A stretch of DNA of 64,000 nt from Bradyrhizobium xenonodulans (GTDB lineage: Bacteria > Pseudomonadota > Alphaproteobacteria > Rhizobiales > Xanthobacteraceae), in assembly GCF_027594865.1 (NCBI RefSeq), contig NZ_CP089391.1:7532501-7596500 (forward strand), given 5' to 3'. Shown one piece after another: positions 17,896 to 50,906 of the stretch. Below the pieces are notes generated by a model. That model saw nothing but the letters and a program-made list of their open reading frames with translations. It did no database searches and was not told the DNA's origin. Made by a program: the position numbers and the translations under genes. How positions within the stretch are numbered: the stretch's first letter is position 1; every line of letters starts with the position of its first letter.

Positions 17896-18792
17896 ATGCA
17901 TCTTCTCAAGGACGATTCCGCAACTGGCGGACTGAGCAGCCCAGCCCTCGCCGAGCGCGTGCGCGCGCAAGAATTTTCTGCTGACCTTGCCCCGAGCATG
18001 GACCATCTCGACCAGCTCGAGGCGCAGAGCATCTACATCTTCCGCGAGGCCTTTGGCCGTTTGAAGAAGATCGCCCTGCTGTGGTCGCTCGGCAAGGACT
18101 CCAACGTCATGATCTGGCTGGCGCGCAAGGCCTTCTTCGGCCGCCTGCCGTTCCCGGCCCTCCATGTCGACACGGGCAAGAAGTTTCCGGAGATGTATCG
18201 CTTCCGCGATCATTACGGCAAGGAATGGGATCTCGATCTGCGCGTCGAGCCCTGCCCGCCCATCGATGCCGTCGACCCAACGCTGCCGCCGGCTGCCCGT
18301 TCCGCCGCGCGCAAGACGGAGGGCCTCAAGATGGCGCTCGGCAAATACGGCTTTGACGGTCTGATCGCCGGCATCCGCCGCGACGAGGAAGCCACCCGCG
18401 CCAAGGAGCGCGTGTTCTCGCCACGCGGTCTCGAAGGCAATTGGGACGTGCGCGACCAGCCGCCGGAGTTCTGGGATCATTTCAACGCCTCGCCGCCGCA
18501 AGGCGCGCATTTGCGCATCCACCCGATCCTGCATTGGACCGAGGCCGACATCTGGGCCTACACCAAGCGCGAGAACATTCCGATCATCCCGCTCTACCTC
18601 TCGCAAAACGGCAAGCGCTATCGCTCGCTGGGCGATCAGGACATCACCAACCCCGTGAACTCGACCGCGTCGAGCATCGACGAGATCCTGGCCGAGCTCG
18701 AGCAGACCAAGGTGCCGGAGCGCGCGGGCCGTGCGCTCGACCACGAGACCGAAGACGCCTTCGAGCGCCTTCGCGTCGCCGGCTATCTCTGA
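17896..18792 (+). CDS. cysD: Sulfate adenylyltransferase subunit 2
   Basis: A 298-residue ATP-sulfurylase catalytic subunit that forms APS from sulfate and ATP, driven by the GTPase CysN. The PP-loop ALLWSLGKDSNVMIWLARKAF is near residue 58 (S-L-G-K-D-S), and the C-terminal RFRSLGDQDITNP-type motif appears as KRYRSLGDQDITNPV near residue 238. The core starts at MDHLDQLEAQSIYIF; the chosen ATG adds 34 residues, usual for rhizobial CysD, whereas extending to 17806 would run into the promoter region. cysNC follows 20 bases later. Confidence 0.95.
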   Translation: MHLLKDDSATGGLSSPALAERVRAQEFSADLAPSMDHLDQLEAQSIYIFREAFGRLKKIALLWSLGKDSNVMIWLARKAFFGRLPFPALHVDTGKKFPEMYRFRDHYGKEWDLDLRVEPCPPIDAVDPTLPPAARSAARKTEGLKMALGKYGFDGLIAGIRRDEEATRAKERVFSPRGLEGNWDVRDQPPEFWDHFNASPPQGAHLRIHPILHWTEADIWAYTKRENIPIIPLYLSQNGKRYRSLGDQDITNPVNSTASSIDEILAELEQTKVPERAGRALDHETEDAFERLRVAGYL

Positions 18793-23392: not shown

Positions 23393-23417
23393 GGAACGGC
23401 CCCGCGCTGCTTGCGTT
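23393..23417 (+). promoter_or_regulatory. EcfG-type general-stress promoter of csbD
   Basis: GGAAC at 23393-23397 and CGTT at 23414-23417 are separated by exactly 16 bases, matching the established alphaproteobacterial EcfG consensus GGAAC-N16/17-CGTT. The -10 element ends 29 bases before the csbD start, leaving room for a short leader. Confidence 0.8.
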
Positions 23418-23446
23418 GTACGGCCATCAACCAACGGGAGATGGTC

Positions 23447-23647
23447 ATGGACTGGAATCGGATCGAAGGAAACTGGAAGCAGTTCAAGGGATCGGCCAAG
23501 GAGAAGTGGGGCAAGCTCACCGACGACGACCTCAGCCTGATCGAGGGTCGCCGCGAGCAGCTCGAGGGCCGGCTCCAGGAACGCTACGGCAAGGCCAAGG
23601 ACCAGGTTCGTCAGGACGTCGACGACTGGCTCAAGTCGCTACATTGA
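23447..23647 (+). CDS. CsbD family stress-response protein
   Basis: A 66-residue hydrophilic protein with the CsbD signature: MDWNRIEGNWKQFKGSAKEKWGKL at the N-terminus and a second helix with LEGRLQERYGKAKDQ. The ATG at 23447 is chosen because GGGAG ends six bases before it; the ATG at 23441 directly abuts that site. CsbD-like proteins are small, helical, and typically induced by general stress; their molecular action is unknown. Here an EcfG-type promoter lies just upstream and a strong terminator just downstream, making a single-gene stress unit. Confidence 0.93.
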   Translation: MDWNRIEGNWKQFKGSAKEKWGKLTDDDLSLIEGRREQLEGRLQERYGKAKDQVRQDVDDWLKSLH

Positions 23648-23661
23648 GGCAGACACGAACG

Positions 23662-23688
23662 AAGCCCCGGCTCACGCCGGGGCTTTTT
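23662..23688 (+). terminator. Intrinsic terminator after csbD
   Basis: AAGCCCCGGC-TCAC-GCCGGGGCTT followed by TTT; perfect 10-bp stem. It may also serve the convergent membrane-protein gene. Confidence 0.92.
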
Positions 23689-23717
23689 GTTCGAAGGTGG
23701 GTAGCCCGACGGTCCCG

Positions 23718-23873
23718 CTAGAACACCGTCAGATATTTCAGCAGCGACACGACGCCGATGATGATCACGATCACGCGCGCGATCTGCTTGGCGCGGCCGT
23801 CCATCGGCAGCATGTTGATGAGATAGAGCACGAGAATGACGACGAGAAAGGTGACGAGTACGCCGACCAGCAT
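23718..23873 (-). CDS. Small hydrophobic membrane protein (51 aa), Thivi_2564-like
   Basis: A 51-residue product starting MLVGVLVTFLVVILVLYL and ending LLKYLTVF. It has two hydrophobic helices (about residues 2-19 and 32-47) joined by a short loop with MLPMDGRAKQIAR, the pattern of the small Thivi_2564-type membrane protein family. AAGGGGG lies eight bases before the ATG as a ribosome-binding site. An EcfG-type promoter (23912-23936) faces it on the minus strand. It is convergent with csbD. The predicted location is the inner membrane; function unknown. Confidence 0.82.
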   Translation of the reverse strand: MLVGVLVTFLVVILVLYLINMLPMDGRAKQIARVIVIIIGVVSLLKYLTVF

Positions 23874-23911
23874 CGCGAAGCCCCCTTCAGGCAAATTGCT
23901 AACGGTGTTCT

Positions 23912-23936
23912 AACGCCGATCTCCCGCGCTGGTTCC
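23912..23936 (-). promoter_or_regulatory. EcfG-type general-stress promoter of the 51-aa membrane protein
   Basis: On the minus strand GGAAC (23932-23936) and CGTT (23912-23915) are separated by 16 bases, matching the EcfG consensus. The -10 element lies 38 bases upstream of the ATG. Confidence 0.8.
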
Positions 23937-24001
23937 ATTCAGGCAACCTGTTGCAACTTCTGGTATTTCCGTAGTTCTACAGATGGGCTGACCGCTTAAA
24001 A

Positions 24002-24013
24002 TTTTACCCTTTT
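24002..24013 (+). promoter_or_regulatory. Motif shared upstream of both chemoreceptor genes, copy 1
   Basis: TTTTACCCTTTT, preceded by CTTAAAA, 148 bases before the first chemoreceptor start. The same 12 bases recur at 26352 before the second gene at nearly the same distance. The preceding TAAAATTT resembles the -35 half of flagellar sigma-28 promoters, but the -10 half does not match well. Confidence 0.45.
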
Positions 24014-24149
24014 CATTTCAGATGCAGAAACCGTTTGGGTCATGCGCCGCAAACGGCATGCGATTGCCGATCCGCGTGCCCCTCCGTTCTCGATGTTGCC
24101 CGGGGCGTCTTGACGAACTTTGCAATGGGAATTTTTGGGGGGGACTTCG

Positions 24150-26243
24150 ATGCTCAATCGTCTGACCGTGTCCGCGCTGCTGAAGGCGGTGATCGCGATC
24201 ACGTCGGCCTGCGTGGTGATTGCGCTCTCGCTCACCGCCTACGAATCCTGGGACCGCCTCAAGACCGCCAACCGCATCTCGCAGATCGCCGGCGCGTCCG
24301 CCGATTTGTTCAAGACGATGCACAATTTGCGCACCGACCGCTCGACCACCAACCGGCTTCTCAACTCGACCGAGCCGATGGATGCCGAGATCGAGAAATA
24401 TCTGCGCGCGATCCGCGACGCCGAGATGCCCGCGATGGCACGCGCGCTGGAGCTGCTGCCCGCCATGGACTTCCCGCAATCGGGCACGCTGGTGCCGGAG
24501 CTCGCGCGTCTGCACAAATCACTGACCGAACAGCAGAAGCAGTTCTGGGAAGACGTGGCCAAGCCGAAGGACCAGCGCCGCGCCGGACTGCCGAAGGAAT
24601 ACATGGAGACGACGGGAAGCCTGCTCGAGACGCTCGACAAGCTCTCCAACATTCTGGCCGCCAGCGTCAATCACCAGGACGCGGCCATCGACCAGCTGTT
24701 GTCGATCAAGCAGAACGCCTGGCTGCTCCGCAACACCGCGGGCGAAGCCTCGCTGATCATCTCGACCGGCCTCAATGCCGGCCGTATCACGCCGGAGGCC
24801 CGTCTCGCCTACACCCAATTTGCCGGCGGCACGTCGGCAATGTGGAAGGCGCTGGAACTGTCGGCATCAGGCATGCAGTTGCCGCCCGCGCTGTCGTCCG
24901 CGATGGCTGCGGTCAAGACCGCCTATTTCGATCCGCAATATCTGGCCCTTCGCGATCGCCTGGCCAACACGCTCGCCAGCGGCGAAAAAGCCGAAATGAC
25001 CGCGAACCAGTGGACCCCTGTCACGGTGGGCCGCCTTTCCAGCGCGGTGGCCGTGGCCGAAGCCGCCCTCGACGCCGCCAAGGACCACACACTGGAGCAA
25101 CGCGGCGCCGCGCAGCGCGCGCTGATCGTGCAGCTTGCACTGCTGGCGCTCGCCATCGGCCTCGCCGTCGGCGCGGTCATGCTGGTCAATCGCCGCGTCA
25201 TCCATCCCCTCAACACCATCCGCGACGCCATGCTGAAGGTCGCCGGCGGCGATCTTGCGGTCGACAGCGGCTATCTCGACCGCCAGGACGAGATCGGCGC
25301 GCTGGCCGGCGCGCTGGAAACCTTCAAGCAGCAGGCGACCGAGAAGCTCAAGATCGAGGCGCAGGAGCGCGAACGCAATGTCGGCGCCTCGGCGCGCCAG
25401 CGCGCGGTCGAGGCCTATGTCGGCGAGTTCGAGGGCGCGGTGCGCAAGACGCTCGGCGAGTTGAGCGAGGCCTCCGGCGAGATGCGCAAGACCTCGGGCG
25501 ATCTGTCCAACGTGTCGCGCCAGACCAACGACCGCGTCCAGGTCGCCGGCAAGGCCTCCAATGACGCCTCCATGAGCGTCGACAGCGTGGCTGCGGCCGC
25601 CGAGGAGCTCTCGGCCTCGATCAACGACATCAGCCAGCAGGCCGCGCATGCCGCCGGCATCGCCAGCCGCGCCGTCAACCAGGCCCGCGAGACCGACGGC
25701 ACCGTGCAGGGACTGGCACAGTCCGCGGGACGCATCGGCGAGGTCGTCGGATTGATCAACACCATCGCGGCGCAGACCAATCTGCTCGCGCTCAACGCCA
25801 CGATCGAGGCCGCGCGCGCCGGCGAGGCCGGCCGCGGCTTTGCCGTGGTCGCCTCCGAGGTGAAGTCGCTGGCGAGCCAGACCGCGAAGGCCACCGAGGA
25901 AATCTCCGGCCAGATTGCCGACATCCAGCGGGTCGCAACCGACGCCATCAACGCGATCCAGACCATCGGCGGCATCATCGGCGAGGTCAACGAGGTCGCC
26001 ACCGCGATTGCCGCCGCCGTGCAGGAACAGGGCGCGGCAACCCAGGAGATCACCCGCAGCACGCAATTTGCGGCACAGGGCACCAAGAACGTCTCGGACA
26101 ACATTACCGGCGTCAAGGCCGACGCGGACGCCGCCGCAGCCGCCGCCGACAATGTGAAGCACGCCTCCGAGATGCTGGAGAGCCAGAGCCGCCAGCTCGG
26201 CCATGAGGTCAGCGACTTCCTCGGCAAGATCCGCGCAGCGTAA
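24150..26243 (+). CDS. Methyl-accepting chemotaxis protein, first of a tandem pair
   Basis: A 697-residue chemoreceptor. Helix TM1 is at about residues 8-30, a periplasmic all-helical sensor spans 31-324, TM2 is about 325-347, a HAMP domain follows ([17 protein letters not shown] near 352), and the cytoplasmic signalling domain occupies about 430-690. The hairpin tip [20 protein letters not shown] is canonical and contacts CheA/CheW. The C-terminus lacks the NWETF-type pentapeptide for CheR. The ligand is unknown. The ATG at 24150 has a G-run ribosome-binding site. The next gene encodes a close paralogue of identical length, with the signalling domains almost the same and the sensors more diverged. 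Confidence 0.95.
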
Positions 26244-26257
26244 GACATACTGGCGCG

Positions 26258-26280
26258 CGTCCCTGCAAAAAGCAGGGACG
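26258..26280 (+). terminator. Stem-loop after the first chemoreceptor gene
   Basis: CGTCCCTGC-AAAAA-GCAGGGACG, a perfect 9-bp stem 15 bases after the stop. No T-run follows; it matches the end sequence of the family D repeat and may be a remnant of that element rather than a true terminator. Confidence 0.45.
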
Positions 26281-26351
26281 ACAGCGGAGATTGAGGCGCC
26301 GGTCGTCCGATTCCCGGCCCCGTAATTTTACGGCAGGAACACTGTCTAAGT

Positions 26352-26363
26352 TTTTACCCTTTT
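26352..26363 (+). promoter_or_regulatory. Motif shared upstream of both chemoreceptor genes, copy 2
   Basis: TTTTACCCTTTT again, 143 bases before the second chemoreceptor start, preceded by GTCTAAGT. Flanking sequence is otherwise different from copy 1, which makes retention of the 12 bases notable. Confidence 0.45.
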
Positions 26364-26430
26364 CGGGCCAAATGCGTTTCAGGCGCCTGCCTTAGGGCAT
26401 GCGCATCTGCTGCGTGCATCCCTTTGGTCG

Positions 26431-26475
26431 TTCGAAGTTCGTGGGGGCTTGCCGTTCGGGGCCACGAACTTCGAA
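26431..26475 (+). other. Perfect 14-bp inverted repeat in the second chemoreceptor leader
   Basis: TTCGAAGTTCGTGG at 26431-26444 is exactly inverted at 26462-26475, with a 17-base loop. It ends 19 bases before the start codon, so in the transcript it would form a strong hairpin near the ribosome-binding region, or in DNA serve as an operator. Confidence 0.7.
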
Positions 26476-26494
26476 ACGCATACCGGGGTGTTCG

Positions 26495-28588
26495 ATGCTC
26501 AATCGCCTGACCGTATCCACGCTGCTGAAGTCGGTGATCCTTTCAACCGCGCTCGTCGTCGTCATCGGCTTCTCGATCAGCGCATGGAGCTCCTGGACCC
26601 GGCTGCAAGCCGCCAACCGGATCGTCGCGGTCTCTGCCGCCTCGGCCGAAGTGTTCAAGGGGATGGCGAATATCCGGGCCGACCGCTCGACCAGCAACCG
26701 TCAGCTCACCTCGGACGTCGCGATGGACAAGGACATCGAGAAATACATTCGCGAGGTCCGTGACGCCCTGATGCCCGCCCTCGCCCGCACGCTCGAGATC
26801 CTGCCCACGACCGATCTGGCCCAGCGCGACACCCTACTGGCCGATCTCGGCGGGATGAACAAGACGTTGCTGGAAAAACAGGCGGAGTTCTGGACCGAGG
26901 TCGTCAAGCCCCGGGCCGAGCGCCGCGCGGGCCTCGCCAAGGAATATGTCGCGACCGAGGACGCGCTGATGGCGCTGCTCGACAGGCTCTCCGGCGCGCT
27001 CGCAGCGAGCGTCAACCACCAGGACGCGACCATCGACCAACTCCTGACCATCAAGCAGATGGCCTGGCTGCTCCGCAACACCGCCGGCGAATCCTCGCAG
27101 ATCGTCGGCAATGCGCTCAACGCCGGCAAGATCGCGCCCGAGGTGCAGCTTGCCTACACCAAATTGGTCGGCGGTACCGACACCGCCTGGACCGCGATCG
27201 AGCTTGCCGCCTCGGGCATGCAATTGCCGCCGGCGCTCGGCGCCGCGATCACCGAGACCAAGTCGACCTATTTCGATCCGCAATATACCGCGACGCGCGA
27301 CGGCGTCATCGCGACGGTCGCCAAGGGCGAGAAGCCCTCGATGACCGCCAATCAGTGGAGCCCCTATTCGGTGCCGCGTATGATGAGTGCGGTGAAGCTC
27401 GCGGACGCGGCGCTGCAAGCGGCCAAGGATCACTCCGCAGCTCAGCGCGCGACGGCGGTGCAATCGCTGATCTTGCAGATGGCGCTGCTCATCACCGCGA
27501 TCGTCCTGACCGGCGCCGCGATGCTGGCGGTCAGCCGCCGCGTGATCACGCCGCTGCATAGAATTCGGGACGCGATGCTCGAGGTCGCCGGCGGCGATCT
27601 CGGCGTCGACAGCGGCTATCTCGACCGCAAGGACGAGATCGGCTCGCTCGCCGGTGCGCTCGAAACCTTCAAGCAGCAGGCGATCGACAAGCTCAAGATC
27701 GAGGCGCAGGAGCGCGAACGCAACGCCGGGGCTGCCGCGCGCCAGCGCGCGATGGAGGCCTATGTCGGCGAATTCGAGGGCGTGGTGCGCAAATCGCTGG
27801 GGGAATTGAGCGAGGCCTCCGGCGAGATGCGCAAGACCTCGGGCGACCTCTCGGCCGTGTCGCGCCAGACCAATGAACGCGTCGAGATCGCCGGCAAGGC
27901 CTCGAACGATGCCTCCACCAGCGTCGAGAGCGTCGCCGCTGCCGCCGAGGAGCTGTCTGCCTCGATCAACGACATCAGCCAGCAGGCCGCGCATGCCGCA
28001 GGCATCGCCAGCCGCGCGGTCAATCAGGCCCGCGAGACCGACAGCACCGTTCAGGGGCTGGCGCAATCGGCAGGACGCATCGGCGAGGTCGTCGGCCTGA
28101 TCAACACCATCGCGGCGCAGACCAATCTGCTTGCCCTCAACGCCACGATCGAAGCCGCGCGCGCCGGCGAAGCCGGACGCGGCTTTGCCGTGGTCGCCTC
28201 CGAGGTGAAATCGCTGGCGAGCCAGACCGCCAAGGCGACCGAGGAAATCTCCGAGCAGATCGCCGACATCCAGAAGGTCGCCGGCGATGCCATCAACGCG
28301 ATCCAGGCGATCGGCGGCATCATCGGCGAGGTCAACGAGGTCGCAACCGCCATCGCCGCCGCCGTGCAGGAACAGGGCGCGGCCACGCAGGAGATCACCC
28401 GCAGCACGCAATATGCGGCGCAGGGCACCAAGAACGTCTCGGACAACATTACCGGCGTGAAGACCGACGCCGACACCGCGGCCGGTGCGGCAGACAACGT
28501 CAAGCAGGCCTCGGAAACGCTGGAGACGCAGAGCCGCCAGCTTGGCCAGCAGGTCAGCGACTTCCTGGGGAAGATTAGGGCGGCGTAA
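26495..28588 (+). CDS. Methyl-accepting chemotaxis protein, second of a tandem pair
   Basis: A 697-residue chemoreceptor with the same layout as its upstream neighbour: TM1 at residues 8-30, periplasmic sensor to about 324, TM2, HAMP, and the signalling domain from about 430. It starts with the same MLNRLTVS leader. The HAMP and signalling parts differ from the first copy by scattered substitutions only, while the sensor region differs far more, so the pair most likely arose by tandem duplication with the ligand-binding parts drifting apart or the signalling parts kept alike by gene conversion. No clear Shine-Dalgarno is seen; a strong hairpin lies in the leader. Confidence 0.95.
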
Positions 28589-28626
28589 GCTACGGTTAGA
28601 TCAAGAGCTGTAGCTACACCTTCGGT

Positions 28627-28757
28627 GTCGTCCCTGCGAAAGCAGGGACCCATAACCACAGGGATTGGTTTGGCGCGAGCTGGTCACTCCGGGCCTTCGC
28701 CAAACTTGATCCTGTGGTTATGGGTCCCGGATCCGCGCTTCGCTTGTCCGGGACGAC
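28627..28757. repeat. Dispersed palindromic repeat, family D (about 130 bp)
   Basis: It opens GTCGTCCCTGCGAAAGCAGGGACCC and closes with GGGTCCCGGATCCGCGCTTCGC then GTCCGGGACGAC. The arm CCCATAACCACAGG (after 28648) is inverted as CCTGTGGTTATGGG. This is another bradyrhizobial intergenic repeat type, here between the convergent chemoreceptor and DUF2865 genes. Confidence 0.75.
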
Positions 28758-28797
28758 AGCGATAATGAGGCGATAGCTCGCGCTCCACGCGAAGCCC

Positions 28798-29448
28798 CTA
28801 CTCCTTCGCCACCACCGGCACCTGGCGGAAACGCGCACGCACCGACTCGGGCAGCGGGGAGAAGTTCATCGCGACGCCGCGGCGGTCGTTGGCGTTGCGG
28901 CTGGCGACGACGAGGCCATCGCTGCCGGCAACGATATCGCCCTTGCGCAGGGTGGGATCGTCCTCGACCTTGACCTGGGCGAGCCCGACCGGATCCTTGC
29001 CGTTGCAGGTGCAGCCGGCAACGATCTCGTTGCGATAGCGGAAGGCGTTCGGCAGGTCGGAATAGGATTTTCCATTGTCGGTCGTGGCGTCGTCGATATT
29101 GCTGCCATAGACCAGCGAGGTTTCCGACGTCGGGCAGAAGCTCTTGCAGGACTGCGCCTTGCTTTCGGCGTCGTTTCCTTGCGCCGGGAAGTAACGGCCA
29201 TCGCATCCGCGAACGCAATAGGCGCTGCCGCCGCCATAAGAGGCTCGCTGGCGCGGCACGTCGTAGCGCGGCATGTCGTCGTTGGGGAACGGCATCCGGA
29301 TTTGCGGAGGCCGCGCTCCGAACGCGCCGAACAGTGCCGAGAAGAAATCTTCCGCATGCGCCGCCGGCGTCAGCGCGAGGCCGAGCGAGGCGACGGTGAA
29401 CAAGGCTGCCGCGACGCCAGCCAGCTTGCCGATCGAGCGTTGACTCAT
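28798..29448 (-). CDS. DUF2865 domain-containing exported protein
   Basis: A 216-residue protein with a signal peptide (cut near AAHAEDFF, about residue 34). The mature part has the DUF2865 pattern: GGGSAYCVRGCDGRYFPA near residue 75, a conserved Cys region CKSFCP near 100, then FRYRNEIVAGCTCNGKDPVGLA near 140. Six cysteines suggest disulfides. The family is confined to Rhizobiales and its role is unknown. The start ATG follows GAGG. It begins 15 bases after the L,D-transpeptidase stop on the same strand, so both are probably one transcript, which suggests an envelope role. Confidence 0.88.
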   Translation of the reverse strand: MSQRSIGKLAGVAAALFTVASLGLALTPAAHAEDFFSALFGAFGARPPQIRMPFPNDDMPRYDVPRQRASYGGGSAYCVRGCDGRYFPAQGNDAESKAQSCKSFCPTSETSLVYGSNIDDATTDNGKSYSDLPNAFRYRNEIVAGCTCNGKDPVGLAQVKVEDDPTLRKGDIVAGSDGLVVASRNANDRRGVAMNFSPLPESVRARFRQVPVVAKE

Positions 29449-29463
29449 GACCTCACTCAACTC

Positions 29464-30249
29464 CTAGTTCACGGCCGACGTCGAGATGTTCAGCGCCTGC
29501 CGGCCGGAAGGCAGCGCCGTCACCGCCGGCCGCTTGCGTACGGGATCGCTTCCTTTGTCGCCTCCCTTGGCCATCAGCGGCGCGTTCTTCGGCAGCACCA
29601 CGACCTTGGCGCCGATATTGACGCGGCTGAACAGGTCCGTGACGTCCTCATTGGTCATCCGGATGCAGCCCGACGAGACGAATTTGCCGATCGTGGTCGG
29701 ATCGTTGGTGCCGTGGATGCGATATTCGCTGGAGCCGAGATACATTGCGCGCGCGCCGAGCGGATTGCCGGGACCGCCGGCGACGAAGCGCGGCAGATAG
29801 GGCTGCCGTGCGATCATCTCGGCCGGCGGATGCCAGTCCGGCCATTCCGCCTTGCGGCTGACGCTCTGCACGCCCGCCCAGGTGAAACCTTCGCGGCCGA
29901 CGCCGACGCCGTAGCGGATCGCGCGGCCGTTGCCGAGTACGTAATAAAGGTAGGTGTTGCCGGTATCGATGACGATGGTGCCGGCCGGCTCGCTCCTGTC
30001 GAAGCTGACGATCTGCTTGCGCAGGCGGTCGGGCAACGCCGCATCCTCGTCGGCGGCCTGCGGCTGTTCAGCCGCGTAGCCCTGCGGGTAGGTGGTCTGG
30101 TCTTGCAGATAGATCTGCGGCTGCATCGGCGCGTAGCCGAGCGTCTGGGCCTGCGCCGCGAACGGCACGGTCAGCAATGCTGTCGCGAAGGCAAAAGCGG
30201 TGGCGGCGCGCGGCGAGAAGCGGCGACGGACTGAAGACAACTTTGTCAT
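29464..30249 (-). CDS. L,D-transpeptidase (YkuD domain)
   Basis: A 261-residue exported protein (signal peptide to about residue 34, AAQAQ). The YkuD catalytic domain covers about residues 85-220, with IVIDTGNTYLYYVLGNG at its start, the histidine motif HGTNDP near 178 and the nucleophile in SSGCIRM near 195. The enzyme forms 3-3 peptidoglycan crosslinks or anchors proteins to the wall. Many paralogues exist in Bradyrhizobium. An EcfG-type promoter on the same strand (30297-30322) ends 48 bases upstream, so stress induction is likely, and DUF2865 is co-transcribed downstream. Confidence 0.92.
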   Translation of the reverse strand: MTKLSSVRRRFSPRAATAFAFATALLTVPFAAQAQTLGYAPMQPQIYLQDQTTYPQGYAAEQPQAADEDAALPDRLRKQIVSFDRSEPAGTIVIDTGNTYLYYVLGNGRAIRYGVGVGREGFTWAGVQSVSRKAEWPDWHPPAEMIARQPYLPRFVAGGPGNPLGARAMYLGSSEYRIHGTNDPTTIGKFVSSGCIRMTNEDVTDLFSRVNIGAKVVVLPKNAPLMAKGGDKGSDPVRKRPAVTALPSGRQALNISTSAVN

Positions 30250-30296
30250 GTGCTGCCCCGTGAGATGTGTGCATCAGGTGATGCGGCTGTCCAACA

Positions 30297-30322
30297 AACG
30301 CAGCCAAGCCGACTCAAGTTCC
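30297..30322 (-). promoter_or_regulatory. EcfG-type general-stress promoter of the L,D-transpeptidase operon
   Basis: On the minus strand GGAAC (30318-30322) and CGTT (30297-30300) are separated by 17 bases, within the 16/17 spacing of the EcfG consensus. The site is divergent from a second EcfG-type site 60 bases away. Confidence 0.75.
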
Positions 30323-30381
30323 GCCGCTGGCTGCGGCGGCGACGTCACAGTCAAGCGAGCGCCAATTCACGAAGCCGCGAT

Positions 30382-30406
30382 GGAACCCAGGCGCCCTCCG
30401 GACGTT
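30382..30406 (+). promoter_or_regulatory. EcfG-type general-stress promoter of the AI-2E-type permease
   Basis: GGAAC (30382-30386) and CGTT (30403-30406) are separated by 16 bases. The -10 element ends 49 bases before the proposed GTG start at 30456. Confidence 0.78.
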
Positions 30407-30455
30407 GGTCGTTCATCAATGGGCGCGCGGAGGCTTCCGTGCGGGAGAAAATGTT

Positions 30456-31568
30456 GTGCGCGTCCTTCCGAGTGAACGTCTGATTCCCGGCAACAGCGAA
30501 GGCGCCCCGCTTCCCGACAGCCATGTCGAACTGCCACCGGTGATCCGCCGTACCGAGTTCGTCGCCTTTGCACTCGCCGGTCTGCTCCTCATCGCCGTGG
30601 TCGCGGTGCTGTATGTCGCCCGGGCGTTCTTCCTCCCGGTCGTGATGGCGATCGTCGCCGGCACGATGCTGTCGCCGGCGGCCTCCTTTCTGGAGCGGCG
30701 GCACGTGCCGCGCGCGGTCGGTGCAGTCCTGATCGTGGCCGCGGTGACCATGGTCGTCGCCTTCGTCGTCGCGCTGATCGCTGCGCCTGCAATGGAATGG
30801 AGCTCGCGCCTGCCGGAGCTGGGCGCGCAGTTGAAGGACAAGCTGCACGTGTTCGACCGGCCGCTCGCCCTATGGGCGGAGCTGCAAGCCATGGTCGGCG
30901 GCTCCGAGGGGCTGCCGAGCTTCCAGCTCCCGAAATTCGAATGGGTGCAGCCGACGCTGGAATTCCTCTCGCCAACCTTCGCCGAATTCCTGCTGTTCTT
31001 TGCCACCCTGATCCTGTTCATCGCAAGCTGGCGCGATCTGCGGCGGGCGTTGATCATGACGTTCAATGACCGTGATGCGCGGCTGCGCACCTTACGAATT
31101 CTCAACGAGATCGAGATCCATCTCGGCAACTATCTTTTGACGGTGACCATCATCAATATCGGCGTGGGCGTCGCGACCGGCATCGTGTGCGCGGCCACCG
31201 GCATGCCCAATCCGGCCGGGCTGGGTGCGCTCGCGGCCGCGCTCAACTTCATCCCGATCATCGGACCGGTCGCGATGTTCGTCATCCTGATCGTGGTTGG
31301 ACTCGTCGCCTTCCCGACCCTCAGCGGCGGACTGATGGCGGGGCTGGCCTTCGGCGGCATCACCTTCCTGGAAGGGCACTTCGTGACGCCGACCATCATC
31401 GGCCGCAGGCTGGCGCTGAATGCGCTCGCCGTCTTCGTCGCCCTGGCGTTCTGGACCTGGTTGTGGGGACCGATGGGTGCGTTCCTGTCGTCGCCGCTGC
31501 TGATCGTGGGGCTGATCCTGAAGGAGCATCTGCTGCCGGAGAATTCGCCGCAGCTCCCCGAGGAATGA
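30456..31568 (+). CDS. AI-2E family transporter (PF01594-type permease)
   Basis: About 370 residues with eight predicted helices. The pattern fits the AI-2E/YdgG-like family: VLYVARAFFLPVVMAIVAGTMLSP near residue 50, a large soluble segment (about 100-160), then SLLLFFATLILFI-type and LNFIPIIGP near 270, and EGHFVTPTIIGRRLALNALAVF near 315. Members transport small signalling or osmotic solutes, and the AI-2 label is not proof of substrate. The start is uncertain: GTG 30456, with GGGAG 11 bases upstream and just downstream of the EcfG-type promoter, is preferred to an earlier GTG near 30405 that would overlap the promoter. Confidence 0.85.
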   Translation: MRVLPSERLIPGNSEGAPLPDSHVELPPVIRRTEFVAFALAGLLLIAVVAVLYVARAFFLPVVMAIVAGTMLSPAASFLERRHVPRAVGAVLIVAAVTMVVAFVVALIAAPAMEWSSRLPELGAQLKDKLHVFDRPLALWAELQAMVGGSEGLPSFQLPKFEWVQPTLEFLSPTFAEFLLFFATLILFIASWRDLRRALIMTFNDRDARLRTLRILNEIEIHLGNYLLTVTIINIGVGVATGIVCAATGMPNPAGLGALAAALNFIPIIGPVAMFVILIVVGLVAFPTLSGGLMAGLAFGGITFLEGHFVTPTIIGRRLALNALAVFVALAFWTWLWGPMGAFLSSPLLIVGLILKEHLLPENSPQLPEE

Positions 31569-31583
31569 CCGGTTTCCCCGAAC

Positions 31584-31608
31584 GGAACTTACCCGACGAC
31601 GAAACGTT
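31584..31608 (+). promoter_or_regulatory. EcfG-type general-stress promoter before the DUF883 gene
   Basis: GGAAC (31584-31588) and CGTT (31605-31608) are separated by 16 bases and lie between the AI-2E-type gene and the DUF883 gene, 38 bases before its ATG. It would give a second transcript within the cluster. Confidence 0.78.
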
Positions 31609-31646: not shown

Positions 31647-32018
31647 ATGTCATCGAGTAATGCCGAAGCCGGGATGAGAGACTGGACCGACAAAGCCACA
31701 AGAGAACGCCTCGAGAAGGATGTAGCAGCCGTGAAAAGCGATATCGCCGCCCTCACCGATCAGATCACCGACGCGCTCAACACCTTTGCCAATTCCACCA
31801 GCAAGCAGGCCCGCCGCGGCTATCGCCAGGCGCGCGAGAACGTGGATTCCGCGATCGACGACATGTCGGAACGCGGCGGCGCGATGATGGGTGCTGCACA
31901 AGACGCCTACGGCTCGATCGAGGAAACGCTGGAAGACGCGATCACGCAGCGGCCACTCGCGACCGTCGGTATCGCGCTCGGCATCGGTTTCCTGATCGGC
32001 GCCGCCTGGCGCCGATAA
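31647..32018 (+). CDS. DUF883 family membrane-anchored protein (ElaB/YqjD-like)
   Basis: A 123-residue protein with a long amphipathic helical region (residues 12-95, many Ala, Gln, Lys, Glu) and one C-terminal hydrophobic helix (residues 103-119, LATVGIALGIGFLIGAAW) ending in WRR. This is the DUF883 (ElaB/YqjD) layout: tail-anchored inner-membrane proteins, which in Escherichia coli bind ribosomes and are stress-induced. GGAG precedes the ATG at good spacing. It has its own EcfG-type promoter and is followed by a related membrane-protein gene. Confidence 0.88.
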   Translation: MSSSNAEAGMRDWTDKATRERLEKDVAAVKSDIAALTDQITDALNTFANSTSKQARRGYRQARENVDSAIDDMSERGGAMMGAAQDAYGSIEETLEDAITQRPLATVGIALGIGFLIGAAWRR

Positions 32019-32126: not shown

Positions 32127-32582
32127 ATGTTTCAACGCATCATCGATGGCATCAGCGCATCGACCGGCACGACCGTCCGGCTGACGTCGCTCGCCGCAGG
32201 CACGGCCTTCGCGTTGTTCATCACGACCTGCTTCCTCTGTGCCGCCGCCTTCATCTCGGTCCTGGAGAAATACGGTCCGGTGCAAGCCTGTCTCGCAGGT
32301 GCCGGCATCTTCTTCCTGCTGACGCTCGCCGCGGCCGGCAGTTATTGGGGCTACAAGCGGGAGACGGAGAAGCGCGCGCGCATCGCGGCCGAGCGCGCCG
32401 CGAAGTCGGCGGCCTCGAGCATGCTCGCCGATCCCATGCTGCTCGCGACGGGGCTCCAGATCGTGCGCGCCATCGGAATCAAGCGGCTGCTGCCGATCCT
32501 GGCGATCGGCGGTGTCGCGCTCGGAATCATGGCGAGCCGCGCCGGCGTCCCCGACGACGCGTCGGCTGAACCGGCCGAATAG
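32127..32582 (+). CDS. Small membrane protein downstream of DUF883, holin-like
   Basis: A 151-residue protein with two long hydrophobic helices (about residues 22-50 and 52-76), a charged Ala-rich amphipathic segment (80-105) and a C-terminal helix (about 110-135). GAGGAG lies upstream of the ATG at 32127. The placement after DUF883, with a 108-base gap containing a direct repeat of TTGGCTCGTGAG, resembles the YqjD-YqjE arrangement of enterobacteria, in which a DUF883 protein is followed by a phage-holin-superfamily protein. I infer a YqjE-like role but the sequence alone is not diagnostic. Confidence 0.7.
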   Translation: MFQRIIDGISASTGTTVRLTSLAAGTAFALFITTCFLCAAAFISVLEKYGPVQACLAGAGIFFLLTLAAAGSYWGYKRETEKRARIAAERAAKSAASSMLADPMLLATGLQIVRAIGIKRLLPILAIGGVALGIMASRAGVPDDASAEPAE

Positions 32583-32770: not shown

Positions 32771-33913
32771 ATGAAACCGTCCGTCAAGGCGAACCTCGCC
32801 GCATTCCAGCACGACGCCAGGCTGTATTTGACGCTCGGCATTGCCAACTGGTCGGTGTTCATCGACCACATCCCGAACAACGTCGTCAATTTGCTGACGT
32901 TGCGCAATTTCGGCTTCAGCGGCGCGGCCGACCTGTTCGTGTTCGTGGTGGGCTATGGCGTTGCCATCATCCACGGCAGGATGGCGCTGGAGCGCGGCTA
33001 TGTCGTCGCGGCGACGCGCATCTTCCGCCGCGTCTGGCGGCTCTACGCCGCCTATGTCGTGCTGTTCGTGATCTATATCGACGCCATCGCCTACGTCGCC
33101 TCGCAATCGATGGCGCCGGAGATCATCCACGAATACAACATCTCCGGCATCCTCGATCACCCGCTGCGCATCCTGGTCCGCGGGCTCGTGCTCCAGGAGG
33201 AGCCGCTGAACCTCGACCTGCTGCAACTGATGATCCCGCTGATGGCGTTCTTTCCGTTCGCGCTGTGGGGGCTGCTGCGGCGGCCGAACGTGACGCTTGC
33301 GGCATCGGTCGCGCTGTATGTCGCAGCGCGCTGGTTCGACTGGAATTTCCGGGTCTATCCCGACCAGGAGTGGACCTTCAATCCGCTGTGCTGGCAAATG
33401 CTCATGGTGCTGGGCGGATGGTTCGCCGTGACGGGCGCCTCCGGCCGCGCGCTGCACGGCCTATCCTGGCTGCGGATCCTCGCGGGTGCCTATCTCGTGT
33501 TCGCAATGGCCGTCACCTTGATGCGGCATTCGCCGGCGCTGTCCGTCCATTTGCCGGACTTCGTCCTCAACGGCATCGCGCCGACCGACAAGGAAAACCT
33601 CGCCCCCTATCGCGTGGTCCATTTCCTCGCGCTCGCCTTCCTCGCGACACATCTCATACCGGCCGATCACCCCGGCTTGAAATTGCGGCCGCTCCAGGCG
33701 GTGATCACATGCGGCGAGGAATGGCTCGCCGTGTTCTGCGTCGGCGTGTTCCTGTCCTTTGCCGGCCATCTCATCCTGATCACCGGGCCGAACCTGGTGG
33801 TGATGCAGATCGCCGTGAGCGCCGTCGGCTTCGTGGCGATGACGGCAGTGGCCTATTACATCTCCTGGTCGAAGCGGCAGGACCTGCCGGCCGCCTTGCG
33901 GCAGCAGGCCTGA
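32771..33913 (+). CDS. OpgC family membrane acyltransferase-like protein
   Basis: A 380-residue protein with about ten hydrophobic segments. The N-terminal LGIANWSVFIDHIPNNVVNLLTLRNF-like region and GFSGAADLFVFVVGYGVA are the marks of OpgC, which in Proteobacteria adds succinyl groups to osmoregulated periplasmic glucans; in Bradyrhizobium OpgC can also add other groups. The conserved histidine (DHIPNN near residue 35) may be catalytic. Cyclic glucan modification suits osmotic adaptation. The start ATG at 32771 has no clear Shine-Dalgarno site. A same-strand out-of-frame ORF covers the same bases but is not real. Confidence 0.88.
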   Translation: MKPSVKANLAAFQHDARLYLTLGIANWSVFIDHIPNNVVNLLTLRNFGFSGAADLFVFVVGYGVAIIHGRMALERGYVVAATRIFRRVWRLYAAYVVLFVIYIDAIAYVASQSMAPEIIHEYNISGILDHPLRILVRGLVLQEEPLNLDLLQLMIPLMAFFPFALWGLLRRPNVTLAASVALYVAARWFDWNFRVYPDQEWTFNPLCWQMLMVLGGWFAVTGASGRALHGLSWLRILAGAYLVFAMAVTLMRHSPALSVHLPDFVLNGIAPTDKENLAPYRVVHFLALAFLATHLIPADHPGLKLRPLQAVITCGEEWLAVFCVGVFLSFAGHLILITGPNLVVMQIAVSAVGFVAMTAVAYYISWSKRQDLPAALRQQA

Positions 33914-33991: not shown

Positions 33992-34606
33992 GTGGCGATG
34001 GCTAAGAGCGGAGGTGACGAGGCTGACAGCGCGCCGAGGCGCGGCCGGCCGCGGTCGATCGAGACCAGCAACGCCATCCTCGAAAGTGCCTATGCGCTGA
34101 TGGCCGCCACCGGCCTTGCCGCCACCACCATCGACGCCGTCGCGCGCCACTCCAGCGTCTCCAAGATGACGATCTACAAATGGTGGCCGTCGCGCGAGGC
34201 GCTGCTGATCGACGCCTTCCTTCATCACGCCGCGCAGATGCTGCCGCTGCCGCCCGCGAGTTCCGGCACCCCCGCGGCGCGCGCGCGCGGTCATGCCACG
34301 GCCTATGCCGAGGCGCTCCAGGGCGAATTCGGCAAGGTGCAACTCGCCGTGATCTCCGAATGCATCTCCAAGACCGGCTCGGCGGAGCTGTTCTACGCGC
34401 GCTACCTGCAATTCCGCCGCGACGCACTGGTCGAGATGATCGCCGCGGGCCAGACCGACGGCAGCATCCAGGCCGAGGGGCTGGCCGAGGACCTCTACGA
34501 CGCGATCTATGGCGGCCTGTTCTACCGCTACGTCTTCGGCATCGCACCGATCACGCCGGCCTACGCGCGCAACCTGGTCGATCTCGTTTTGCGCCCCAAA
34601 GGCTAG
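33992..34606 (+). CDS. TetR/AcrR family transcriptional regulator
   Basis: A 204-residue repressor. The N-terminal helix-turn-helix is complete: RPRSIETSNAILESAY at about residues 18-33, then GLAATTIDAVARHSSVSKMTIYKWWPSREAL at 41-72. The C-terminal domain (about 90-195) is the ligand and dimer part; no ligand can be inferred. GTG 33992 is chosen because GAGGAG lies six bases upstream of it; an in-frame ATG follows two codons later. The gene follows opgC after 78 bases and ends six bases before the convergent kinase gene. Confidence 0.92.
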   Translation: MAMAKSGGDEADSAPRRGRPRSIETSNAILESAYALMAATGLAATTIDAVARHSSVSKMTIYKWWPSREALLIDAFLHHAAQMLPLPPASSGTPAARARGHATAYAEALQGEFGKVQLAVISECISKTGSAELFYARYLQFRRDALVEMIAAGQTDGSIQAEGLAEDLYDAIYGGLFYRYVFGIAPITPAYARNLVDLVLRPKG

Positions 34607-34612
34607 CGCGAC

Positions 34613-36271
34613 TTACTTGGCCGGCCGCACCGGCGCCGAGATCCTGTCCGTGCGGTCGCGCTCGGTCATGTCGACCACCGTCTCCATCGGCGCGGTCAGC
34701 TCATAGACGTAGGAGACGTCGGTGAAGTAGCGCTTGGCGGTGCCGCCCAGTGCTTCGGGCGCGACGCGGTCGAGCAGGATCAGGCCGAAATCGGAATCCG
34801 GGCGCCGCGTCGCCTCGCTGGTGTTGAACTCCTCCCAGCGGAAATTGAAAATCTCGCTGGACTCCTCGCCCGTCACCGTCCAGTTCGCGGTGATGTGCGG
34901 ATGCTTTCCGACCAGCGACAGACCTTCGTCGGAGTGCGAGGCGAGTTCGAAGAACAGCAGCGACAGGCTCTGCGCCGCGCGCGCGCTGACCGCGATGTCG
35001 GGGCCGGTGACGGCGATGCGGTCGGCATGCGGGATGGCGCGCGCCTCGAACAGGCCCTTCAGCTTGACGCCCTGCCACTGGCTCTCGCTGAGCAGCGAGA
35101 CCACGTTGGACATGGCATGGATGCGGCCGATCAGCAGTTCGCGCGCGGCGTCGATGTCGGAGCCGTGGCGCAGCGTGCGCGTCACGATCGACTGGATCAC
35201 CGCCAGGATGTTCTTGACCCGGTGGTTGAGCTCGTCGATCACGGCGGTCAACCGGCGCTCGAAGCCGATCCGCACCTGGATTTCGCGGCTGAGCCGCAGA
35301 TTGTTGTAGGCGACATAGCCGAACAGGCCGCACACCATCGCGGTGATGGCAAAGCCGATCGCGGCCACGATGATCGCGGTCTGCTCGGCGCGCCGCGCCG
35401 AATTGGTCTTGGCGTAATAGCCGAGTTGCCAGTCGCGGCCGCCAAAGCTCATCGTGCGCGTCGCCGACGGCGTCGGCCCCTCCGCCGTCGTCATGCGCGA
35501 GGAGACCACGCCCTGGTCGTTGGCAACGAGCTCGCCACCTTCCTTCCGCGGATCCTTCAGCGCGACCGCAAACAACGACATGTCGTCATTGGTCAGCATC
35601 AGCGAGGCGAGCTCGTAGGAAAATGTGATGAAGCCCGCCGGCTCGGTTGCGCCCTCGGGAATGACGGGCGCGGCCACGATGATGCCGACCGGGCCGCCGC
35701 CGCGCAGGAGCGGAATCGGGTCCGAGGCGACCGACCTCTTCTCGACCCGCGCACGCGTCAGCATCGCGCTGCGCACCGGATCCTGCTCGTAGCTGCGGCC
35801 GGGCAGCGCCTTGGTCTCGTTGCTGCGGGGTTCGAGATCCATCAGCACGTCGATCGGCTGGGTGACCCCAGCAAGGTCGATCGGCTTGTCGTCATAGGTG
35901 CGGATTTTCGGGTTGGGGAAGCCGGCGCTCGCGATCGCGGCCTGCGCCGGCACCAGCTCATTCGGCTTCAGCCGGGCGACCCACCCGGCCACCACGAAAT
36001 CGGTCTTGAAGGCGTAGATGGCCGAGCGCAGTGGCTCCAGCATGTTCGGCTTGATCACCGATGGCGTGCGGAACAGGCCTGAGGCGACACGCGCGAGCAG
36101 CTCGCGCTCGGTCAACCGGTCCTGGACCAGGCTTGCGTGAACGTCGATCGCGCGCGCCAGCGCGATCCGGTCCAGCGCCAGCTCCTGGTCGTGGACACGA
36201 TAGGCCGCGAGCCCGGAGAGCAGGGCCCCGAGCAGAGCGATGAAGCCGATGATGAAACCCAGCCGGACCAC
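34613..36271 (-). CDS. CHASE-HWE histidine-kinase-like membrane protein, degenerate ATP site
   Basis: A 552-residue sensor. TM1 is at residues 5-24; a periplasmic CHASE domain spans about 60-290; TM2 is at about 305-327; then a helix and the HWE H-box DELNHRVKNILAVIQ, with the phospho-acceptor His near 349. The WE motif RWEEF is present near 479. However, the N-box that binds Mg-ATP is FELASHSDEGLSL instead of the usual HELATNAxKYGALS, so the invariant Asn is missing, and the G-box RRGFG is reduced to DSDFG. Such a protein may phosphorylate poorly or act as a scaffold. It starts with GTG without a clear Shine-Dalgarno site. It is convergent with the TetR gene. Confidence 0.88.
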   Translation of the reverse strand: MVRLGFIIGFIALLGALLSGLAAYRVHDQELALDRIALARAIDVHASLVQDRLTERELLARVASGLFRTPSVIKPNMLEPLRSAIYAFKTDFVVAGWVARLKPNELVPAQAAIASAGFPNPKIRTYDDKPIDLAGVTQPIDVLMDLEPRSNETKALPGRSYEQDPVRSAMLTRARVEKRSVASDPIPLLRGGGPVGIIVAAPVIPEGATEPAGFITFSYELASLMLTNDDMSLFAVALKDPRKEGGELVANDQGVVSSRMTTAEGPTPSATRTMSFGGRDWQLGYYAKTNSARRAEQTAIIVAAIGFAITAMVCGLFGYVAYNNLRLSREIQVRIGFERRLTAVIDELNHRVKNILAVIQSIVTRTLRHGSDIDAARELLIGRIHAMSNVVSLLSESQWQGVKLKGLFEARAIPHADRIAVTGPDIAVSARAAQSLSLLFFELASHSDEGLSLVGKHPHITANWTVTGEESSEIFNFRWEEFNTSEATRRPDSDFGLILLDRVAPEALGGTAKRYFTDVSYVYELTAPMETVVDMTERDRTDRISAPVRPAK

Positions 36272-40751: not shown

Positions 40752-40755
<4 letters not shown>

Positions 40756-41291
40756 AGTGAACTCCTTGCAAGCTTGACGGTGTCGTCAAACATCTGGTCG
40801 AGCGTTGCGTTGCCGCCACGACAACCTGCGACAACTTTCTCGGCCCATTCGACGTAATCGATGAGGTCTTCGCGCTCTTCACCGCTTGGATCGGAATGAA
40901 TGCGCGCGCGGGTGTTACTGATCTTGTCGGCAATCTTGATCAGCTTGGCGCCCGGCGATTTGTGCGGAGCGCCCTCGATCTGTTTCTGCCGCCGCTTGGT
41001 TTTCGGCCGATTCATGTCGTCGGTGCATTCGGCGACGAGCGAAGCGACACGCTCGGAGAATGTTTGCGCGAGCTCCTCGCGCGTCGTCTCAGTGTCTTCG
41101 ACCGTATCGTGCAGCCAGCCGGCCGCAACCAGCTCGGCGTCGGCACCATCGGTCACGATCGCAAGCAGGTTCGCGACCTCGGCGAGATGATTGATATAGG
41201 GCTCCCTGCCGCGGCCCTTGCGCGCCATTCCGCTATGGCGGCGCGCAGCGAGCTCGGCGGCCTCGGAGACAAGGCGGATCGGTGAGAGCAT
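40752..41291 (-). CDS. MESH1-like HD-domain hydrolase inside the urease operon
   Basis: A 179-residue protein with a RelA/SpoT-type HD domain. The metal-binding His is in [12 protein letters not shown] near residue 36, the HD pair in [14 protein letters not shown] near 60, and the later Asp in KIADKISNT near 123. There is no synthetase or regulatory domain, so it resembles the small alarmone hydrolases (MESH1-like), which cleave (p)ppGpp. Activity has not been shown for this protein. It lies between ureB (57 bases) and ureC (four-base overlap) in the operon, an insertion seen in some rhizobia. It could link urea nitrogen supply to the stringent response; this is inference. Confidence 0.85.
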
Positions 41292-50618: not shown

Positions 50619-50906
50619 ATGGCCAAGGAAGAGCTGATCCAGTTCGAAGGACTGGTCACCGAAATCCTCCCCGACGCCCGCTACCGCGTGCAACTCGATG
50701 CCGGACACGAGATCGTCGCCTACACCGCCGGCAAGATGAAGAAGAACCGCATCAAGACGCTGGCGGGAGACCGCGTGACGGTGGAGATGTCGCCCTATGA
50801 CCTCGAGAAGGGCCGGCTGATTTTCCGCCACAAGGACGAACGTCCCAGCGGGATGGGCGGACCTCCGCGCCCCGGACAGCGCGGTGGCCAGTTCCGCCGG
50901 CGCTAG
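50619..50906 (+). CDS. infA: Translation initiation factor IF-1 paralogue with C-terminal extension
   Basis: A 95-residue protein whose first 72 residues are the IF-1 S1/OB fold: [26 protein letters not shown], then [18 protein letters not shown] and [21 protein letters not shown]. The extra 20 residues are rich in Gly, Pro, Arg and Gln ([17 protein letters not shown]), longer than the usual 72-residue IF-1. The gene follows the helicase after 24 bases with GGAG before the ATG. Rhizobia carry more than one IF-1-like gene, so this copy may be the stress or cold version; that is inferred from its neighbours. Confidence 0.9.

Follow-up and report, generated by a model that had tools for sequence, protein, structure and literature searches.

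Which regulator reads five closely packed promoter-like sites in the genome of Bradyrhizobium xenonodulans, and why do the genes behind them stand together? The sites lie within 8.2 kb of a 64-kb stretch (positions 7532501-7596500 of the contig NZ_CP089391.1, hereafter the window, to which coordinates refer unless stated otherwise) and follow the pattern GGAAC-N16/17-CGTT, for which the whole single-contig genome of 8,276,659 bases was scanned. Judged from sequence, they are very likely promoters of sigma-EcfG, which belongs to the alphaproteobacterial general stress response (GSR). The block that they serve is most probably a target arm left orphaned from an ancestral GSR locus, in which the targets stood beside the regulators phyR, nepR and ecfG.

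Position and clustering of the five sites

All five sites of the original prediction, each 29-49 nt from a start codon, were found by the scan at the same coordinates and on the same strands (distances measured from the end of the -10 box). Specifically, csbD (23447..23647, + strand; PF05532 and gene call), encoding a CsbD-like stress protein, is preceded by a site at 23393..23417 (+) with an N16 spacer and 29 nt to the ATG. The second site, at 23912..23936 (-; N16), lies 38 nt from the start of the gene at 23718..23873 (-), whose product of 51 amino acids had been predicted simply as a small membrane protein and can now be assigned to the Thivi_2564 family (NF041949, over the cut-off). The L,D-transpeptidase gene (ldt; 29464..30249, -), which encodes a YkuD domain with solved relatives (PF03734), has its site at 30297..30322 (-; N17, 47 nt to the start), the gene of the AI-2E family transporter (30456..31568, +; PF01594) at 30382..30406 (+; N16, 49 nt to a GTG start), and the DUF883 gene (31647..32018, +) at 31584..31608 (+; N16, 38 nt to the start). 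The DUF883 protein matches PF05957 and PF19029 just over the cut-off (for PF05957, 30.4 bits and a cut-off of 25.4). Only 15 nt separate the ldt stop from the start of the DUF2865 gene (28798..29448, -; PF11064), so the ldt promoter presumably serves both genes and the two would share a transcript; the DUF883 gene and the YqjE-like gene behind it (32127..32582, +), encoding a small membrane protein, are presumably co-transcribed as well. The assignments to csbD, ldt-DUF2865, the AI-2E gene and DUF883 stand as originally made.

Counted alone, the pattern is not enriched in the genome (150 matches vs. 162 for a reversed control), and since it is no commoner than its control, a single match means little. 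The genome-wide scan that the original prediction called for is informative with regard to placement: 42 sites stand 21-60 nt upstream of a called start, vs. seven in the flipped orientation, while the corresponding counts are 9 vs. 5 at 61-100 nt and 11 vs. 11 at 101-150 nt. Genes around all 150 sites were called with a simple codon-usage caller, by which 74% of the sampled own-genome DNA around the sites and 88% of the window are coding; the caller therefore under-calls in short stretches. The 42 sites before called starts and two window sites with corrected starts give 44 well-placed sites. The five sites in 8.2 kb form the densest cluster among the 150 exact sites, the next densest, near 3.90 Mb of the genome, having four in 7.1 kb, and a uniform null of 150 sites yielded a five-site cluster in 0.25% of 20,000 runs. 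Of the 44 well-placed sites, the window has five within 8.3 kb, and no other stretch of that length has more than two; the corresponding uniform null (20,000 runs) gave at least three in 3.8%, at least four in 0.07% and five in none. Within the window, a spacer of N15-18 was used for comparison with shuffled sequence, and the six matches (the sixth at 18279, -) were reached in three of 100 shuffles (mean 1.79). A scan for sigma-70 promoters and terminators showed no excess over shuffles.

It had also been claimed that no such site precedes the other genes of the window. For exact matches no further than 130 nt from a called start, the claim is correct; with one mismatch allowed, sites were detected before three genes (34613-36271, 40752-41291 and 50619-50906), the reversed control giving four at the same tolerance. 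The site before the urease-region gene 40752-41291 reads GGAAC-N16-GGTT and lies 24 nt upstream. Outside the window, ten other site-bearing genes were chosen by eye among the 39 well-placed sites, and nine of them have a Pfam match (superoxide dismutase, ferritin-like protein, DUF892, PRC-barrel and PF07332 among the families). Elsewhere, five exact sites form a second group that is more loosely spaced, spanning 15.6 kb (genome positions 6419427-6435021; L177 and L178) and preceding small secreted-looking and PRC-barrel genes.

Conservation of the boxes among relatives

The homologous clusters of relatives keep the boxes, and the predicted regulon is refuted neither by them nor by the frequency of such sites elsewhere in the genome. 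In regions from 35 relatives of the same genus, found through an AI-2E ortholog search, the box stands before csbD in 17/17 cases, Thivi_2564 in 31/31, DUF883 in 35/35, ldt in 29/34 and the AI-2E gene in 23/34 (the AI-2E row of L095 was excluded as an edge artefact; in the scan that counts the window, the figure is 24/35 without it and 25/36 with it). Each of the five boxes is the best kept among 250 same-shaped patterns of its own upstream region, and spacers differ between these relatives while the boxes persist. Of the 32 rows with glcB, 18 were found to have csbD as well. Across the genus, window included, no site was found at glcB (0/32), at either chemoreceptor query (0/27 each), at the YqjE-like gene (0/36) or at opgC (0/12), and DUF2865 has its own site in 1/33; the reversed pattern occurs once at glcB (1/32) and not at the chemoreceptor, YqjE-like, opgC or DUF2865 genes. 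Additionally, among 17 loci from nine other genera, a site was found within 250 nt for csbD in 5/5, DUF883 in 11/11, ldt in 12/17 and Thivi_2564 in 11/16. A named set of 80 loci (Rhodopseudomonas, Tardiphaga, Afipia, Bradyrhizobium and others) has sites before csbD in 29/30, DUF883 in 63/66, ldt in 67/77 and Thivi_2564 in 56/74, compared with 0/76 for DUF2865, 0/66 for YqjE-like, 0/44 for chemoreceptors, 0/12 for opgC and 1/69 for glcB. Position, clustering and conservation together strongly support the putative local regulon of EcfG type.

The description of the block as interrupted by chemoreceptors is literally right. Two such genes (MCP 1, 24150..26243, +; MCP 2, 26495..28588, +; PF00015/HAMP), both without an EcfG site, form a variable insertion: between Thivi_2564 and DUF2865, genomes carry zero, one or two of them. 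A near-identical TTTTACCCTTTTC stretch is located upstream of both (24000-24020 and 26350-26370) and is perhaps a promoter element of their own. Intergenic palindromic pieces nearby (26250-26290 and 28620-28760), namely TCCCTGC...GCAGGGA and the pair CCATAACCACAGG / CCTGTGGTTATGG, resemble dispersed repeat elements.

Three loci of the family were left out as module loci: L214 and L216 have only a distant AI-2E protein, and L215 has an AI-2E protein with DUF883 and YqjE relatives of 32-33%. In L215 (4420-6174), whose genus is more remote within the family, AI-2E, DUF883 and YqjE-like genes form a trio with one EcfG site 60 nt before the AI-2E gene, hinting at an older operon.

The phyR-nepR-ecfG core and the slot beside the block

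The core is absent from this place in the window and stands at about 1.04 Mb of the same contig, where NepR (1.044 Mb) lies between two open reading frames that we take, by homology, to be EcfG and PhyR. In the 17 loci of other genera, PhyR, NepR and EcfG proteins are found beside the block in 12. Linkage was studied in 80 genomes chosen by their AI-2E ortholog, not by phyR. Concerning the nine other genera, an AI-2E protein of at least 57% identity was present in 41 genomes, of which 39 were searched for phyR; it lies within 20 kb, on the right side and convergent, in 34/39 and at less than 2 kb in 27, the other five having it at 27 and 32 kb, at 4.7 kb on the left and, for two, on another contig. 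For the own genus, phyR is within 14 kb in 16/41 genomes, more than 0.9 Mb off on the same contig in 9/41 (the window genome included) and on another contig in 15/41, with no match in 1/41. Among the named loci, phyR stands on the right in 37/80 (in 31 of these, the DNA examined includes the kinase described below), opgC occupies the slot in 12/80, and both are found in 0/80. The phyR gene has a near-consensus site, GGAAC-N16-CGTA, in 27/33 of the named loci.

Where linked relatives have phyR-nepR-ecfG, the window has opgC (32771..33913, +; PF10129) and a TetR-type regulator gene (33998..34606, +; PF00440, PF16859), located between the YqjE-like gene and a CHASE-HWE histidine kinase (34613..36271, -; PF07536, PF03924) whose HWE_HK domain is over the cut-off (E = 8e-24). 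An HWE kinase directly follows ecfG in six of the seven linked loci whose gene order was compared; in the remaining one, G003, it comes about 6.5 kb later. In the linked Bradyrhizobium G027, DUF883 and the YqjE-like gene are followed by two small genes, phyR and ecfG, and then by orthologs of the window genes 34613, 36571, 37234 and onward to 49020 in the same order. The kinase is 3.0-3.6 kb beyond the AI-2E gene in the 12 named loci with opgC in the slot. On a tree of 69 of 81 rows (the remainder being short or without one of three proteins used), the window genome groups among Bradyrhizobium, and the opgC-slot label needs one change, with 12 rows including the window; the smallest starred set containing the window comprises 11 rows, all opgC.

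At its present site, the core is flanked by nitroreductase and Hsp90 genes, as it is in G005 and G002. A single clean insertion between these two genes was considered and ruled out, because they are far apart in the linked G027, at 8.95 and 1.55 Mb. A SnoaL-like protein gene and that of a 141-amino-acid protein without a Pfam match adjoin phyR at the new site (L217, 10962-12253); the two small genes seem to have moved with the core, because their G027 relatives stand between the YqjE-like gene and phyR. A GGCAC-N16-CGTT site lies 50-51 nt before the kinase start in the window, in ten loci with opgC in the slot and in L307 (B. neotropicale), where phyR is retained. It occurs at 8/9 matches in 12/40 kinase upstream regions, and is present in the window and 11 of 12 close orthologs. 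We do not claim that the kinase gained an EcfG promoter of its own when the core departed: the site ranks 43rd of 250 patterns in conservation over the same stretch, and the AAC triplet is described as almost invariant in PMC7083833.

According to excerpts of two reports, stress activates PhyR, PhyR removes NepR, and EcfG fires GGAAC/CGTT promoters (PMC7083833; PMC8092242). For the block, five transcription units would be served: csbD; Thivi_2564; ldt-DUF2865; the AI-2E permease; and DUF883-yqjE-like. Under stress, HWE-type kinases would phosphorylate PhyR, phosphorylated PhyR would take up the anti-sigma factor NepR, and the EcfG set free would transcribe the five units in trans. The kinase 34613-36271 may act as such a GSR kinase toward PhyR, as its domain and neighbourhood suggest. 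The ancestral locus probably ran from the targets through phyR / nepR-ecfG to the HWE kinase; in the clade of the window the core would have departed, opgC-tetR would have come to lie in the slot, and the targets, with intact promoters, would have remained with the kinase.

Several observations weigh against this reconstruction. The nine genera were preselected by a clear AI-2E ortholog (at least 57% identity), and the family genomes with a weaker match or none that were covered for linkage are L214-L216 alone, which are without most of the block. Neither phyR nor opgC was seen in 31/80 named loci, some with short flanks. The opgC-slot grouping has a support of only 72, and the same tree accommodates the phyR label only with 15 changes; core linkage was therefore lost, or moved outside the 10-kb view, more than once, and its history is not one clean event. 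As for the promoters, an AI-2E site was found within 250 nt in 0/17 loci of other genera and in only 33/80 named loci, and seven of the 23 same-genus AI-2E matches are 128-144 nt from an extrapolated start. Control of the AI-2E gene by an exact site of its own is the weakest of the five promoter assignments.

Could a nine-base pattern have come to cluster here by chance, the DNA being G+C-rich, as the unenriched bare count would allow? Position, orientation and clustering contradict this, as do boxes conserved across relatives with drifting spacers; the orientation bias, the unique cluster and the conservation rule out a chance origin of the sites, and we give such a coincidence next to no credence. 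It is improbable, too, that the promoters are read mainly by another extracytoplasmic function (ECF) sigma factor with a similar box. For Bradyrhizobium japonicum, 17 putative ECF sigma factors are reported in an abstract (PMC3420878), but GGAAC-N16-CGTT is the EcfG consensus as published in PMC7083833 (seen in excerpt), and in most of the sister genomes studied ecfG itself stands next to the block.

The reading of the block as a former neighbour of its regulators bears on its cohesion as well, for which an origin beside phyR-nepR-ecfG is at least as likely an explanation as an envelope role. The neighbourhood may even be a neutral relic of an old family gene order, kept for no functional reason, an explanation that we take seriously without favouring it: synteny extends to glcB on the left, which is without EcfG sites, and to urease-side genes on the right, and part of the genus has lost the linkage and kept the promoters. 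Neutrality fits less well with a group of five target units next to the sigma factor of their own regulon, the densest such cluster in the genome, and with an order that chemoreceptor or other insertions left unbroken in most genomes examined. A dedicated envelope-protection module, as originally proposed, is plausible by annotation, but we consider it somewhat doubtful. Family matches provide one wall enzyme (YkuD) and three membrane proteins or families (Thivi_2564, AI-2E, YqjE-like), whereas CsbD and DUF883 are by annotation no wall proteins, and Escherichia coli YqjD anchors ribosomes (PMC8778775, in part). It is also conceivable, and in our view rather unlikely, that the parts were kept together by selection in nine genera or more and that the escape of the core in the window clade is a natural experiment on the reason for a sigma factor to stand beside its targets; with the core at a distant site, the arms would therefore now differ in dosage and control.

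Products of the block and the stress response of the family

Apart from Ldt, which is the one clear wall enzyme of the block, its proteins allow guarded statements, and the function of the whole, protective or other, can be suggested from annotation. Predicted structures are weak for DUF2865 and the YqjE-like protein (mean predicted local distance difference test scores of 60.3 and 60.4); a Foldseek search with the weak DUF2865 model gave nothing at E <= 0.001, and a search by sequence revealed no DUF2865 relative of solved structure. The label "holin-like" given earlier to the YqjE-like protein is not detectable in the window protein, which matched no family, PF07332 (Phage_holin_3_6) included; it is recovered in its family, 19/38 orthologs matching PF07332 at E <= 0.01. 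A PF07332 protein encoded elsewhere in the genome (6468205; L179, 2266-2865) has an EcfG site 40 nt from its start.

In E. coli, the gene order is yqjD-yqjE, and we take YqjD to be a DUF883 protein. The block likewise has a DUF883 gene followed by a YqjE-like gene behind a promoter of a stress sigma factor, as in the YqjD/ElaB and YqjE system so far as its source describes it, but the sigma factor is a different one, and similarity to models of the ElaB type is weak (E = 1.5e-6 and 0.077, below cut-offs). Since YqjD needs RpoS and serves as a membrane anchor for ribosomes, as stated in part of PMC8778775, the DUF883-YqjE pair may park ribosomes instead of guarding the wall.

The kinase 34613-36271 shares the HWE_HK domain with GSR sensor kinases of the PhyK, RsiC and Pak type; it differs in its CHASE sensor domain and in standing apart from phyR in the window. 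The GSR kinases of B. diazoefficiens have reportedly been treated by Wulser in 2022, and a B. japonicum regulon is said to have been published by Gourion in 2009. With the PhyR-NepR-sigma-EcfG regulons of Sphingopyxis granuli TFA and B. diazoefficiens, as far as the excerpts go, the block has the promoter consensus in common, and its genome carries phyR, nepR and ecfG; the difference is that five target units here form one 8-kb block, which in sister genera stands beside the regulators. In S. granuli, csbD is an EcfG-dependent, direct target (PMC7083833, in part), and the EcfG regulon of B. diazoefficiens is given as over a hundred genes in a portion of PMC8092242. Our searches for literature joining EcfG with CsbD, or with several of these block genes, returned only PMC7083833; none was found on DUF883 with the GSR in alphaproteobacteria, or joining phyR, ecfG, synteny and Rhodopseudomonas. 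Within these searches, the novelty claimed is for the arrangement only, namely that targets and GSR regulators share a locus and that this locus is split in the window clade.

Most EcfG targets are functionally uncharacterised, and this locus ties a short list of them to their regulators by promoter and position. The genes csbD, Thivi_2564, ldt-DUF2865, AI-2E and DUF883-yqjE-like are therefore first candidates for the core of the ancestral response of the family. The locus also singles out the sensor kinase 34613-36271, for which the window by itself would suggest no link to PhyR. Finally, lineages in which the linkage was kept or lost would offer a direct test of whether it matters that a regulator stands beside its targets.

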